Shown: piece after piece, positions 1-3,587 of the stretch
Layout of the letters: the number at the start of each line of letters is the position of its first letter
Position numbering within the stretch: position 1 is the first letter of the stretch
From: Streptacidiphilus sp. PB12-B1b
GTDB taxonomy: Bacteria > Actinomycetota > Actinomycetes > Streptomycetales > Streptomycetaceae
Direction: 5' to 3'
Assembly (NCBI RefSeq): GCF_014084125.1
Contig: NZ_CP048405.1
Coordinates: 1,488,001 to 1,552,000, forward strand
Length of the DNA stretch: 64,000 nucleotides
Notes under the pieces: model-generated
Told to the model about the DNA's origin: nothing
The model's input: only the letters and a program-made list of their open reading frames with translations
Database searches by the model: none
Program-made: the position numbers and the translations under genes

Positions 1-1153
1 CCACGGCCGGGGTGCCGACGAACGACTGCCGGCCGGTGACCTCGACGATGAGCTCGCGGATGGAGAGCTTCTCGGCCCGGGCGCGCTCGCGCCACTGCCG
101 CGCGGTGGCGATCGGATCGCCGAACATCCGCACACTGGCCCGGCCGCGGGCGATGGTGTGCTCGCCCACCAGCGGGTCGATCTCCGGCAGCGGACCGTCC
201 GGGTCGTAGTCGGACAGGTCCCGGTTCCACAACTGCTCCAGGTACCGGATCGCGGTCTGCCCGCTGACCTGCTGCAACCGGACCTCGCGGGCCAGCTCGG
301 CGGCGTCCTCGGCGGTGTCGCCGAGGACGAAGGTCGCCGCCGGGAGGATCAGCAGCTGGTCGTGGCGGCGGCCGTGCCGGGCCAGCCGGCCCTTGACGTC
401 GGCGTAGAACGCCTGCCCGGCGTCCAGGGTGCTGTGCCGGCTGAAGATGGCGTCGGCGGTGGCGGCGGCGAACTCCCGCCCCTCGTCCGAGTCCCCGGCC
501 TGGAAGATCACCGGACGCCCCTGCGGGCTGCGCGGGACGTTGAACTGCCCGGCGATGTCGAAGTGCTGGTCCCGGTGGGCGAACGAACCGGCCAGCGGAT
601 CGGCCAGGAAGGTCCCGGACTCCTTGTCGGCGACGATCTCGCCGCCCTGCCAGGAGTCGAACAACTCCCAGGCGGTGCGCAGGAACCGGTCGGCGCGCGA
701 GTAGCGGTCCTGCTGCTCCAGGAAGCCGCCCCGGCGGAAGTTCTCCCCGGTGAAGGCGTCCCAGGAGGTGACCACGTTCCAGGCGGCCCGCCCGGCCGAG
801 AGGTGGTCCAGGCTGGCGAACTGCCGGGCCACCTCGTAGGGCTCGTTGAAGGTCGAGTTGATGGTGCCGGTCAGGCCCAGGCGTTCGGTGACGGCCGCCA
901 GCGCGGCCAGCACGGTGAAGGTGTCCGGGCGGCCGACGACGTCCAAGTCGTAGATCTGGCCGCCCTGTTCGCGCAGCCGCAGCCCCTCGGCGAGGAACAG
1001 GAAGTCGAACTTGGCGCGCTCGGCGGTCCGCGCGAAGTGCGCGAAGGACGCGAACTCGATGTGGCTCCCGGCCCGCGGGTCGCTCCACACGGTGGTGTTG
1101 TTGACGCCCGGGAAGTGCGCGGCGAGGTGGATCTGCTTGACGGGCTTGCTCAT
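1..1153 (-). CDS. NtaA/SnaA/DszA-family flavin-dependent monooxygenase (3' end cut by window edge)
   Basis: The protein reads MSKPVKQIHLAAHFPGVNNT and continues without a stop to the window edge (about 384 residues seen). The early Asn-Asn-Thr-Thr-Val-Trp, the FAHFARTAERAKFDF block, SAGRAAWNVVTS and FQAGDSDEGREFAA are typical of the NtaA/SnaA/DszA group of luciferase-like (LLM) FMNH2-dependent monooxygenases, which use reduced flavin from a partner reductase to cleave C-N or C-S bonds. Start ATG at 1153 lies 21 bases after the stop of the LLM gene at 1175-2437, so the two form an operon behind the Cys leader peptide at 2700-2831. From the leader I infer a role in organosulfur scavenging; the actual substrate cannot be read from sequence. 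Confidence 0.88.
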   Translation of the reverse strand, partial: MSKPVKQIHLAAHFPGVNNTTVWSDPRAGSHIEFASFAHFARTAERAKFDFLFLAEGLRLREQGGQIYDLDVVGRPDTFTVLAALAAVTERLGLTGTINSTFNEPYEVARQFASLDHLSAGRAAWNVVTSWDAFTGENFRRGGFLEQQDRYSRADRFLRTAWELFDSWQGGEIVADKESGTFLADPLAGSFAHRDQHFDIAGQFNVPRSPQGRPVIFQAGDSDEGREFAAATADAIFSRHSTLDAGQAFYADVKGRLARHGRRHDQLLILPAATFVLGDTAEDAAELAREVRLQQVSGQTAIRYLEQLWNRDLSDYDPDGPLPEIDPLVGEHTIARGRASVRMFGDPIATARQWRERARAEKLSIRELIVEVTGRQSFVGTPAV

Positions 1154-1174: not shown

Positions 1175-2437
1175 TCAGGCGGACGCGACGGCGGACGCGG
1201 CAGGGGCGGCGTAGCGGTTGGCGGGGCGCTCCAGGCCCAGCAGGCCGCGCAGGGTGTCGGCCTCGTAGCGCTCGCGGAAGACGCCCCGGCGCTGCAGTTC
1301 GGGCACCAGCGCCCGGGTGATCTGCTCCAGGTCGTGCGGCAGCGCGCCCGGCCGCAGCCGGAAGCCGCTCAGCCCGGCCTGCTGCAACTCCAGCAGCAGA
1401 TCGGCCAGTTGGGCCGGGGTACCGGTGAAGATCCGGGCGTCGCTGCGGAGTTCGGCCCCGGCCAGTGCGTCCAGCCGGGCCTTGCGGGCGGCTGCGGCGT
1501 CCTCCTCCGCGTCCAGGAAGACCACCAGGTCGCCGAAGAGGTGCACGGTCTCGCCGGTGCGCCCGGCAGCGTCCTGCTCGGTGCGGATCTCGGTGACGAT
1601 GTCCCGGGCGTGGGCCGCGTCCAGCGGGGTCACGTAGCCGACGTCGGCCGAGCCGGCGATCAGCCGGTAGGGCACGGTCAGGTGGCCGAGCGCGGTGACG
1701 ATCGGCTGGCCCTGCGGCGGCCGGGGCGTGATCGAGGGGCCCTTGACGCTGAAGTGCCCGCCCTGGAAGTCGATGTAGTGCAGCTTGGCGCGGTCCACGA
1801 AGCGCCCGGTGGCGGTGTCGCGGATCTCCGCGTCGTCCTCCCAGCTGTCCCAGAGCCGGCGCAGCACCTCGACGTAGTCGGCGGCCTCGCCGAACAGCTC
1901 GGTGAGCTGGTGCTGCACCTGCGGGGCGGCGAAGTCGGCGACGTCCGCCGGGAGTTCGGGGAAGGTGCGGCGGCCGAAGTGGCGCGCCTCGTCCGGCCGG
2001 GCGGAGACCTGCACCCGCACCCCGGCACGGCCGTTGCTGACGTAGTCGAGCGTGGCGATGGCCTTGGAGAGGTGGAACGGCTCGGTGTGGGTCACCACCG
2101 CCGTCGGGACCAGGCCGATGTTGCTGGTCAGCGGCGCGATCCGGGCGGCGGTCAGGACGGCGTCCAGCCGCCCGCGCACCTGGTCGGTCCGGCCGTCCGG
2201 GCCGGTGTGGGTGGAGGACTGCAGGCCCAGCGAGTCCTCGAGCGTGACGAAGTCCAGCAGCCCGCGCTCGGCCTCGGCGACCAGCTCGCCCCAGTACCGG
2301 GCGGTGAGCAACTCCCTTGGCTGCGCTTGCGGTTCGCGCCAGGCGGCGGGGTGCCAGCCGGTGCCGTCGAGGGCGACGGCCAGGTGCAGCGGCTCGGGTG
2401 ACGAAGGGTCGGAGGACGGTATGTGTGCGGAGGGCAT
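1175..2437 (-). CDS. LLM-class flavin-dependent oxidoreductase
   Basis: A 420-residue luciferase-like monooxygenase. I start it at ATG 2437 (MPSAHIPSSD), not at the longer upstream frame, because the conserved part begins with HLAVALDGTGWHPAAW about 17 residues later. LLM hallmarks are the TARYWGELVAEAERGLLDFVTLEDS block, LTSNIGLVPTAVVTHTEPF, LDYVSNGRAGVRVQVS (flavin-binding barrel strand) and the C-terminal GFRLRPGALPHDLEQI. It precedes the NtaA-like gene by 21 bases and shares its strand. Proteins of this pair often occur together in streptomycete sulfur-acquisition loci. The substrate is unknown; an alkanesulfonate or organosulfide role is inferred from the leader peptide upstream. Confidence 0.87.
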   Translation of the reverse strand: MPSAHIPSSDPSSPEPLHLAVALDGTGWHPAAWREPQAQPRELLTARYWGELVAEAERGLLDFVTLEDSLGLQSSTHTGPDGRTDQVRGRLDAVLTAARIAPLTSNIGLVPTAVVTHTEPFHLSKAIATLDYVSNGRAGVRVQVSARPDEARHFGRRTFPELPADVADFAAPQVQHQLTELFGEAADYVEVLRRLWDSWEDDAEIRDTATGRFVDRAKLHYIDFQGGHFSVKGPSITPRPPQGQPIVTALGHLTVPYRLIAGSADVGYVTPLDAAHARDIVTEIRTEQDAAGRTGETVHLFGDLVVFLDAEEDAAAARKARLDALAGAELRSDARIFTGTPAQLADLLLELQQAGLSGFRLRPGALPHDLEQITRALVPELQRRGVFRERYEADTLRGLLGLERPANRYAAPAASAVASA

Positions 2438-2699
2438 GGCAGTTCGCTCTCTACTCGGCTGCGGGCAGGCAGGTGTCGCCCGCAACCCCGGAGTGGGTGG
2501 CGCTGGGTGCGGTGTGGTGCCGTGGCGGGCGCTGTGCTCAGGAGGGCCGGAGGACGGGCCGGGGGACGCGCCGGGACCGGACCGCAGGACGGGCCGGACG
2601 GCGGCCCCGGGCCGGTGGCGGCCCGCTGCGGCTACGCCGGACGGGCGTGGACGCGTGCGCGGGGGCGCCGCTGGAGGCGGAGGCGCGGGAGGGGCTCGG

Positions 2700-2831
2700 T
2701 CAGCCCGTACACAGGGCGGCGGCGACGCGCTGCAGGTCGATGTGGCGGCGCGAGAAGGAGCCGACCAGGCCGCGGCACGGCCGGACCACGGCGGCGGCGT
2801 GCGACCGCCGCAGGGGGACTGTCGTCCGCAC
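2700..2831 (-). CDS. Cysteine-type leader peptide (43 aa) upstream of the LLM operon
   Basis: GTG at 2831 is preceded by a GGAGGTGA ribosome site. The frame runs 43 codons to TGA at 2700 and ends ...SRRHIDLQRVAAALCTG. The ending (Arg-Arg-His-Ile-Asp-Leu-x-Arg-Val-Ala-Ala-x-Leu-Cys) matches the family of tiny actinobacterial leader peptides found before sulfur-uptake and sulfur-oxidation genes, where translation through the terminal Cys codon reports cysteine supply. The two LLM monooxygenase genes follow 262 bases downstream. That gap contains several GC-rich inverted repeats able to form alternative stems. The peptide identity is from pattern recognition; the attenuation mechanism is inference from related mycobacterial work. 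Confidence 0.8.
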   Translation of the reverse strand: MRTTVPLRRSHAAAVVRPCRGLVGSFSRRHIDLQRVAAALCTG

Positions 2832-2887
2832 TGCCGTCACCTCCCGCCTCGATCGGCCCGGACCGGGCGCGCATGACCTGCTTGGAG

Positions 2888-2915
2888 GCTATCCGGGCAC
2901 GGGAGTCCGTCGCAA
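2888..2915 (-). promoter_or_regulatory. Candidate promoter for leader peptide and LLM operon
   Basis: On the minus strand TTGCGA (2915-2910) and GATAGC (2893-2888) are separated by 16 bases, a common streptomycete vegetative promoter arrangement. Transcription would begin about 50 bases before the leader GTG. The rest of the 311-base divergent gap (2832-3142) shows no other clear element. Confidence 0.4.
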
Positions 2916-3142
2916 TCCCCACCGGACCCGCCGACCGCCTCCCGACGGCTCCTCCCTCGGGAAAACCGCAGCTCAGCGCGGTGGTCGCGGCCCGTCGGCG
3001 GTCGCTGTGATCGCCGGTGGCGGGCCGCCGCGCGCAGCCGCCCGGCCCGGGCGCGGCTTGCGCCGGGCAGCGCAGCGCGGAGAGTGGTACCCGGGGGCGG
3101 AGACCGGAGAGCGCACGCCGACAGGACAGGACCGGAGGCACC

Positions 3143-3475
3143 GTGGACGACCTCGGACAGCTCTGCGAGGAGCACCTCGCCAAGGCCCGCGCCGACGCCC
3201 ACGGGCGCAGCGCGCACCTGCTGCTCCACCAGGGCCCGCTGCGCCAGACCGTGATCGCGCTGACCGCCGGGGCAGCCCTGGACGAGCACAACGCGCCGAT
3301 CGCGGCCAGCCTGCAGACGCTGCGCGGCAGCGTGGTGCTGACGGCGGCGGGCGGCGACCGCACCGTCCCCACGGGCGCGATCCACCCCGTCCCGCAGGAG
3401 CGGCACGGGCTGCGCGCCCTGGAGGACTCGGTGGTCCTGCTCACCGCCGTCACCGCGGTCCCGACACCCGGCTGA
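3143..3475 (+). CDS. Small cupin-domain protein
   Basis: GTG at 3143 (GGAGG seven bases upstream) opens a 110-residue protein. It reads as a single small beta-barrel: HLLLHQGPLRQTVIALTAGA, LDEHNAPIAASLQTLRGSVV, TVPTGAIHPVPQERHGLRAL, VVLLTAV, matching single-domain cupins used as stress or ligand-binding proteins. It is transcribed away from the LLM operon and toward the regulator at 3606. The last codons lie inside a 46-bp tandem repeat that continues beyond the stop. Ligand and role are unknown. Confidence 0.7.
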   Translation: MDDLGQLCEEHLAKARADAHGRSAHLLLHQGPLRQTVIALTAGAALDEHNAPIAASLQTLRGSVVLTAAGGDRTVPTGAIHPVPQERHGLRALEDSVVLLTAVTAVPTPG

Positions 3476-3587
3476 CGCCCGTCCGGGCCCCCGGCTGACG
3501 CCCGCCCCGACACCCGGCTGACGCCCGTCCGGGCCCCCGGCTGACGCCCGCCCCGACACCCGGCTGACGGCCGTCCGGGCCCCGGCG
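3463..3587. repeat. 46-bp tandem repeat, about 2.7 copies
   Basis: A 46-bp unit starting GACACCCGGCTGACGCCCGT occurs at 3463-3508 and 3509-3554, with a partial third copy from 3555. Each unit itself contains two related 23-bp halves (CCCGGCTGACGCCCG). The first copy covers the stop codon of the cupin gene, so copy-number change would alter the 3' untranslated region, not the protein. It sits between convergent genes. Confidence 0.8.

Follow-up and report, generated by a model that had tools for sequence, protein, structure and literature searches.

Why is a pair of uncharacterised luciferase-like monooxygenase genes, LLM1 and LLM2, preceded by a reading frame of only 43 codons that carries a cysteine codon just before its stop? 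Comparative analysis of the sequence leads us to think it probable that this leader ORF acts in cis as a cysteine gauge, which would raise expression of the monooxygenase pair when Cys-tRNA is short. The leader would then provide a regulatory reason to assign the pair to cysteine or organosulfur supply.

The leader frame and its family

The leader ORF occupies positions 2700..2831 on the minus strand of the window (the whole stretch of DNA analysed, 64,000 nt). It encodes 43 aa, from a GTG start at 2831 to a TGA stop at 2702-2700, and its C-terminus reads SRRHIDLQRVAAALCTG. A Shine-Dalgarno sequence, GGAGG (2840..2844, minus strand), lies 8 nt 5' of the GTG; an in-frame GTG at 2840 is an alternative start that would give 46 aa. 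Among the three nearest relatives aligned, the GAGGTGA..GTG of the leader start is also found in L144 and L153 and differs in L145. LLM1 lies on the same strand, 262 nt away. Frame, ribosome site and cysteine-bearing C-terminus are all as the original prediction had described them, and so are the 262-base gap to the ATG of LLM1 at 2437 and the two downstream flavin monooxygenase genes, both of which match Bac_luciferase.

The N-terminal half of the peptide is poorly conserved. The family motif, SRRHIDLQRVAAALC (2709..2753, minus strand), corresponds to positions 5-19 of the NCBIfam profile NF042934 ('putative leader peptide') and ends on the sensor Cys codon, TGT (2709..2711, minus strand), 2 codons 5' of the stop codon; the only other cysteine of the peptide occurs earlier. 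The profile matches the leader above chance (E 1.7e-7, 30.7 bits; 30.7-30.9 bits overall, cut-off 27), and the mycobacterial models Ms4527A and Ms5788A score 20.4 and 15.4 bits, respectively (both cut-offs 45). These scores support membership of the actinobacterial Cys-leader family, which is already catalogued as NF042934. The statement that such a gene is too short for ordinary annotation is out of date: in Streptomyces cadmiisoli NZ_CP030074.1 (PLSDB), WP_324612315.1 is annotated as 'putative leader peptide' directly 5' of an LLM oxidoreductase and an NtaA/DmoA family monooxygenase. Besides this catalogue entry, the earlier reading of the locus overlooked the invariant TGT codon and the SAM-IV partner in relatives.

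Conservation ahead of LLM1

LLM1 is present in 13 of 14 genomes of the genus, at 14 loci. A leader match lies 5' of it on the same strand at all 14, always with TGT, with the provisos that the leader of G002 scores 26.2 bits, just below the cut-off, and that of G004 passes only together with its neighbours. In 12 of these loci, 146-311 nt separate the leader stop from the aligned start of LLM1; the gap is 512 nt in L147, where it includes a run of N, and 862 nt in L154, where by eye it holds a flavin reductase gene. Together with the NF042934 match, this bears out the proposed actinobacterial cysteine-leader pattern.

In other genomes, 80 loci with LLM1 homologues were considered. The leader occurs within 900 nt in 25 of them and only further upstream in four, and none was found in the DNA examined for the remaining 51; among the 20 best-ranked loci, 16 have it within 900 nt. 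The pattern that gives 25/80 misses L041, which was found by a first pattern that gave 16/80 and missed leaders. The original prediction had staked its case on conservation of the cysteine and the RRHIDL motif in relatives, and a cysteine with an R-x-[VI]-D-L type motif is kept in 14/14 genus loci and 25/80 homologue loci, the invariance of R6, D10 and R13 coming partly from selection by the profile. Several homologue loci have a second leader 3-4.5 kb upstream. A separate observation concerns Streptomyces olindensis (L031), whose leader lies 85 nt upstream of LLM1 and reads CGT (Arg) in place of the sensor codon, with TGT as the next codon; this is either a natural variant or a decayed copy.

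A proposed route from ribosome pause to gene expression

As we picture the cysteine gauge, a ribosome would translate the leader, and the conserved nascent segment RRHIDLxRVxxxL together with a single wobble-read UGU would cause it to pause when Cys-tRNA is short. The pause would raise expression of both monooxygenases, which in turn would release sulfur from organic molecules, possibly S-alkylated cysteine or a related thioether or sulfoxide. When cysteine suffices, the ribosome would complete the leader and the operon would stay low. The step after the pause would be either the freeing of the LLM1 ribosome site or the blocking of Rho on the C-rich gap. The sequence itself shows the leader with its conservation, its position ahead of sulfur genes, the constant UGU and the scarcity of a following G; that the ribosome pauses, that Cys-tRNA governs this, which substrate is used and what follows the pause are inferred. 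Several observations count against the gauge: a single Cys codon, without a run, could make a weak gauge; release of the LLM1 Shine-Dalgarno sequence is not predicted; across the class, the downstream Shine-Dalgarno sequence is no more hidden than in shuffled gaps; and 51 of the 80 homologue loci showed no leader.

The gap between leader and LLM1 (2438..2699, minus strand; 262 nt) is 50% C and 31% G and contains no terminator-like site. Its RNA had been called foldable, yet the region 2420-2780 folds in an ordinary way (MFE z-score -0.17; 39/100 shuffles fold as well). Likewise, a premature transcript end had been expected, and as far as an intrinsic terminator is concerned, no terminator-like site or hairpin was found in 2300-3200.

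A ribosome parked on the leader is not predicted to release the LLM1 Shine-Dalgarno sequence in the 12 loci considered, which leave out L147 (run of N) and L154 (long gap); L145 and L155 go in the opposite direction by about 0.16. Across the class, parking a ribosome at TGT is predicted to raise Shine-Dalgarno accessibility by 0.069, compared to 0.037 in shuffled gaps (p 0.006; n = 90, these being the distinct cases with gaps up to 160 nt among the 133 of 149 leaders with an assigned downstream start). Without a ribosome, the Shine-Dalgarno sequence is class-wide no more hidden than in shuffled gaps (0.373 vs 0.377).

A variant of the same cysteine gauge places the output in Rho-dependent termination within the C-rich gap, where a stalled ribosome would prevent Rho loading. 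We consider this output possible, on a tentative footing. It fits the lack of an intrinsic terminator and the composition of the gap, and the 120 nt after the leader stop in the host's family show a C-over-G skew of 0.28 (n = 59) against 0.09 in 24 upstream regions of the window (p 4.5e-11), a weak control since these regions come from one window and probably include this very gap, whose own skew, 0.245, reaches only the upper end of the control values. The available text of a 2005 study that proposed candidate Cys leaders before cys operons (PMC1262725) also weakly suggests Rho for actinobacterial Cys leaders. Nonetheless, the sensor codon is so near the leader end that most of the gap would remain uncovered by a stalled ribosome, and mycobacterial leaders are described as translational in the accessible parts of PMC9031893 and PMC13236596, both of which cite Cys-dependent translational attenuation by Cys-rich short ORFs in M. 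smegmatis. Overall, translational release appears a little likelier than Rho as the output step.

An invariant codon at the proposed sensor position

At the profile position of the motif cysteine, every one of 149 leaders uses TGT (149/149; 67 genomes, 22 families). These leaders are the profile matches that reach position 19 and whose DNA was used, from the host genome, the genus, and samples of phylum and class (matches in 3/60 genomes phylum-wide, then in 55/79 class-wide); listed matches without DNA used and those ending before position 19 (e.g., G131:C2:85366, G118:C1:1355838) are not counted. Elsewhere within the motif, or after it, the cysteines of these leaders are mostly encoded by TGC (127 TGC vs 30 TGT; Fisher p 2.6e-57), and in coding ORFs of the loci examined TGT makes up 326 of 2152 Cys codons (15.1%; 3/26 in the last eight codons). 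As the leaders are related by descent, the p-values overstate independence, and the spread over 22 families is the stronger support for the invariance. That nearly every leader copy examined uses the same rare Cys codon suggests a part for the codon itself in the sensor. Should this hold, a synonymous base that stays constant in 149 leaders of 22 families would demonstrate that a particular codon, beyond the amino acid, can be selected in a regulatory ORF.

Detection bias as the source of TGT is countered by a codon-blind motif scan of translated frames in all loci examined and by loci fetched with LLM1 alone as the query. The scan, which overlaps the 149 leaders, returned TGT in 197/197 matches within 16 codons of the stop; its matches elsewhere were three TGT and one TGC. 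A looser pattern applied 5' of LLM1 homologues gave 40 TGT and one TGC, the latter (L024) lying 1945 nt upstream with its cysteine at a shifted spacing and probably being a chance match. In Ms5788A-type leaders, the sensor position is TGT in all nine scorable cases, the tenth having a decayed motif, while a cysteine just before the sensor, where present, is TGC (4/4).

The base after TGT is constrained as well: it is C in 117, T in 21, A in 9 and G in only 2 leaders (n = 149), whereas 37.7% of Cys codons overall are followed by G (binomial p 1.2e-27). The rarity of G could stem in part from Arg and Pro being preferred after the sensor codon. A single tRNA-Cys gene, with anticodon GCA, was found by a scan that left out at least five long tRNA matches; with this as the sole gene found, UGU would be read by wobble. 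In nonsense-suppression work, 3' purines favour decoding. We propose that the sensor is the weakest Cys codon available, deliberately weak through wobble reading and a mostly pyrimidine context.

Alternatively, TGT might be held constant as an RNA or DNA sequence element and not for its decoding, which we judge unlikely. The constraint does seem to reach the next base, where G is rare, and a three-base pairing between the Asp codon and the TGT region is conceivable (GAY/GUY). However, pairing of that region with the 120 nt downstream shows no excess over shuffles, and the sole stem inside the leader measures 3 bp, its next pair being without covariation (0.44 observed, 0.50 expected). Moreover, the third positions of the other motif codons vary, so that the constraint sits on the sensor codon.

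The monooxygenase pair and its probable role

LLM1 (1175..2437, minus strand) is a luciferase-like, NtaA/DmoA-like monooxygenase of 420 aa that scores 263.7 bits against TIGR03860, under the cut-off of 279.7. LLM2 (1..1153, minus strand) is an NtaA/DmoA family monooxygenase that leaves the window; in the genome it measures 458 aa, and the whole protein is over the TIGR03860 cut-off with 408.7 bits. The best relatives of LLM1 are mostly from Streptomyces, which makes it probable that the host belongs to Streptomycetaceae. Its best solved relatives are DszA, MoxC and YtnJ alike (about 1e-40), and those of LLM2 are YtnJ, which we take to be CmoJ, and MoxC (E about 7e-82), then NTA monooxygenase and DszA.

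Gene clusters were compared across 96 loci (the 80 homologue loci, the 14 genus loci, L100 and L104). The counts are lower bounds because the gene caller is crude: ABC permease 27, SBP_bac_3 22, CE1758-type LLM 21, MsnO8-type LLM 25 and GNAT 7. The permease and binding protein near the pair match amino-acid transporter models, cystine included, all far below equivalog cut-offs. The closest known pathway is S-alkylcysteine salvage in B. subtilis, which according to the accessible text of PMC10863075 consists of acetylation, sulfoxidation by CmoO and C-S cleavage by CmoJ. The likeness lies in YtnJ and MoxC being the nearest solved relatives of LLM2, and in the GNAT, MsnO8-family LLM and amino-acid-type ABC transporter genes that some relatives' loci add; as a difference, no deacetylase turned up among the 10 neighbours run, and the scores of the cystine transporter models stay far below cut-off. 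Salvage of an S-alkylcysteine type of substrate by the pair is our best guess.

In the host genome (7.67 Mb), seven NF042934 matches are over the cut-off, one of them the leader of the present pair, and ten of the 20 listed matches were inspected, namely these seven and three weaker ones; their motif cysteine is TGT in 10/10. One leader precedes genes for ThiS and PALP proteins with a Prok-JAB protein just ahead, a Mec-CysO-CysM-like group. Another stands before sulfite reductase, PAPS reductase and APS kinase, and a further one before a rhodanese, while a divergent pair of leaders has ABC permease and SBP_bac_3 genes on one side and an LLM with two flavin reductases on the other. The three weaker leaders precede an SBP_bac_5 protein, a 2OG oxygenase and a carbonic anhydrase. 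As leader copies in this genome precede sulfur genes, the organosulfur role that had been suggested for the LLM1-LLM2 pair is well supported by association. Two copies may be recorded in their own right: L105 (C1:4389798-4389851, plus strand), over the cut-off and without an assigned downstream gene, and L107 (C1:3211198-3211251, minus strand), a leader-like ORF below the cut-off (23.7 bits) directly 5' of a carbonic anhydrase gene with no obvious sulfur link.

It is quite improbable that the leader is a genuine family member ahead of a pair that are not sulfur enzymes, for example through a wrong inference from NTA-like monooxygenase. LLM1 and LLM2 are indeed also close to nitrilotriacetate monooxygenase, DszA and riboflavin lyase, yet the leader family in the host genome mostly stands before sulfur genes, and in relatives the pair adjoins amino-acid-type ABC genes that have leaders of their own. 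That the ORF arose by chance, or that its product is a small trans-acting protein, we dismiss as barely conceivable: the poorly conserved N-terminal half would suit it, but the leader is kept at all 14 genus loci, close 5' of the pair, with motif and codon conserved.

The upstream region and a SAM-IV partner

A possible promoter, read by eye, lies at 2886..2915 on the minus strand (TTGCGA at 2915-2910, 18 nt, TAGCCT at 2891-2886), in a block that is kept in L143, L144, L145 and L153; a consensus promoter scan gave no promoter-like site there. Slightly further downstream, GGTCATG (2872..2878, minus strand) is probably what remains of the 5' end of a SAM-IV aptamer that was lost, since L144 and L153 run on from that point into such an aptamer. 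In the window itself, SAM-IV (RF00634) has no match up to E 10 in 2300-3300, and no credible Rfam element was found in the leader region, where two weak matches are far below gathering scores. The DNA of the window aligns with the relatives as far as GGTCATG, where the aptamer begins, and then again from a point ahead of the leader, which makes loss of the aptamer by deletion likely.

In seven of the 14 genus LLM1 loci, a SAM-IV aptamer stands just 5' of the leader on the same strand. In 13 genus genomes, 46 SAM-IV aptamers were found, and an NF042934 leader follows within 300 nt 3' of 23; of the other 23, four were checked by motif and all four have a leader, so that at least 27 of 46 stand directly before such a leader. 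The same order was seen outside the genus in G131, of the same family, and in G108, of another family. Tandems of SAM-IV and Cys leader would be a compact two-signal sulfur switch.

Back-to-back divergent pairs of SAM-IV and Cys leader occur as well, at L104 in the host genome (C1:3091040-3091616) and at genus loci such as L147, L149 and L150, with an ABC transporter group downstream in one direction and LLM genes in the opposite one. Upstream of the leader, the window further contains a divergent 111-aa ORF without a Pfam match (3140-3475, plus strand), a tandem GC-rich repeat between a LuxR-type gene and the small ORF 5' of the leader (3458-3583; period 46, 2.7 copies, 98% matches) and a Peptidase A4 family protein (PF01828; 4600-5598, plus strand).

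Codon and aptamer can be joined in a wider reading, which we put forward as rather doubtful: a hard-wired codon sensor across Actinomycetes, in which UGU is required, the 3' context is weak (C/U in 138/149, G in 2) and one codon would do the work of a Cys run. tRNAs for UNN codons can bear ms2i6A37, a sulfur-containing modification made by MiaB, so that thiolation of the tRNA, in addition to its charging, could be read out at UGU. A homologue of MiaB was found; a part for ms2i6A37 in UGU sensing is speculation. With SAM-IV, the sensor would form a two- or three-input sulfur gate for SAM, Cys-tRNA and perhaps thiolation.

Comparison with known systems

Classical terminator attenuators, such as trp leaders, share with the window leader a short ORF that precedes an operon and contains codons for the amino acid being sensed; unlike them, the window leader has no terminator-like hairpin in 2300-3200. 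The mycobacterial polycysteine leaderless short ORFs, reportedly the subject of work by Canestrari in 2020, are closer. They have the RRAVDLCRV/RRHIDLQRV-type motif with a cysteine at the end, and the scorable Ms5788A-type leaders have TGT at the same position. The window leader differs in its one motif cysteine without a Cys run, and it is probably not leaderless because GGAGG precedes its GTG. Cys-rich regulatory ORFs of M. tuberculosis are treated in the available part of PMC9094748, while a survey of S. lividans (PMC8079986) lists eight leader peptides, none called Cys-dependent in the text at hand. The Rhodobacterales cysS uORF motif uORFC-8-2, as given in the accessible part of PMC8632094, is likewise a short ORF that carries conserved Cys codons and precedes a Cys-related gene. 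It has two tandem Cys codons, with UGC dominant, and an intrinsic terminator, whereas the leaders considered here have a single motif cysteine, always UGU, and no terminator was found.

NF042934 remains the nearest match: the profile score is over the cut-off, nothing excludes membership, and in Streptomyces cadmiisoli the leader has the same place before an LLM pair and also uses TGT. As far as the output shows, this is a protein profile in which the codon is unmentioned. The literature searched, which did not extend to Canestrari 2020, yielded no statement of an invariant UGU or of tandems of SAM-IV and Cys leader, which does not prove their absence from print. The leader itself is hence of a catalogued kind, and what is new here, as far as that literature goes, is the invariance of its sensor codon and its tandem with SAM-IV.
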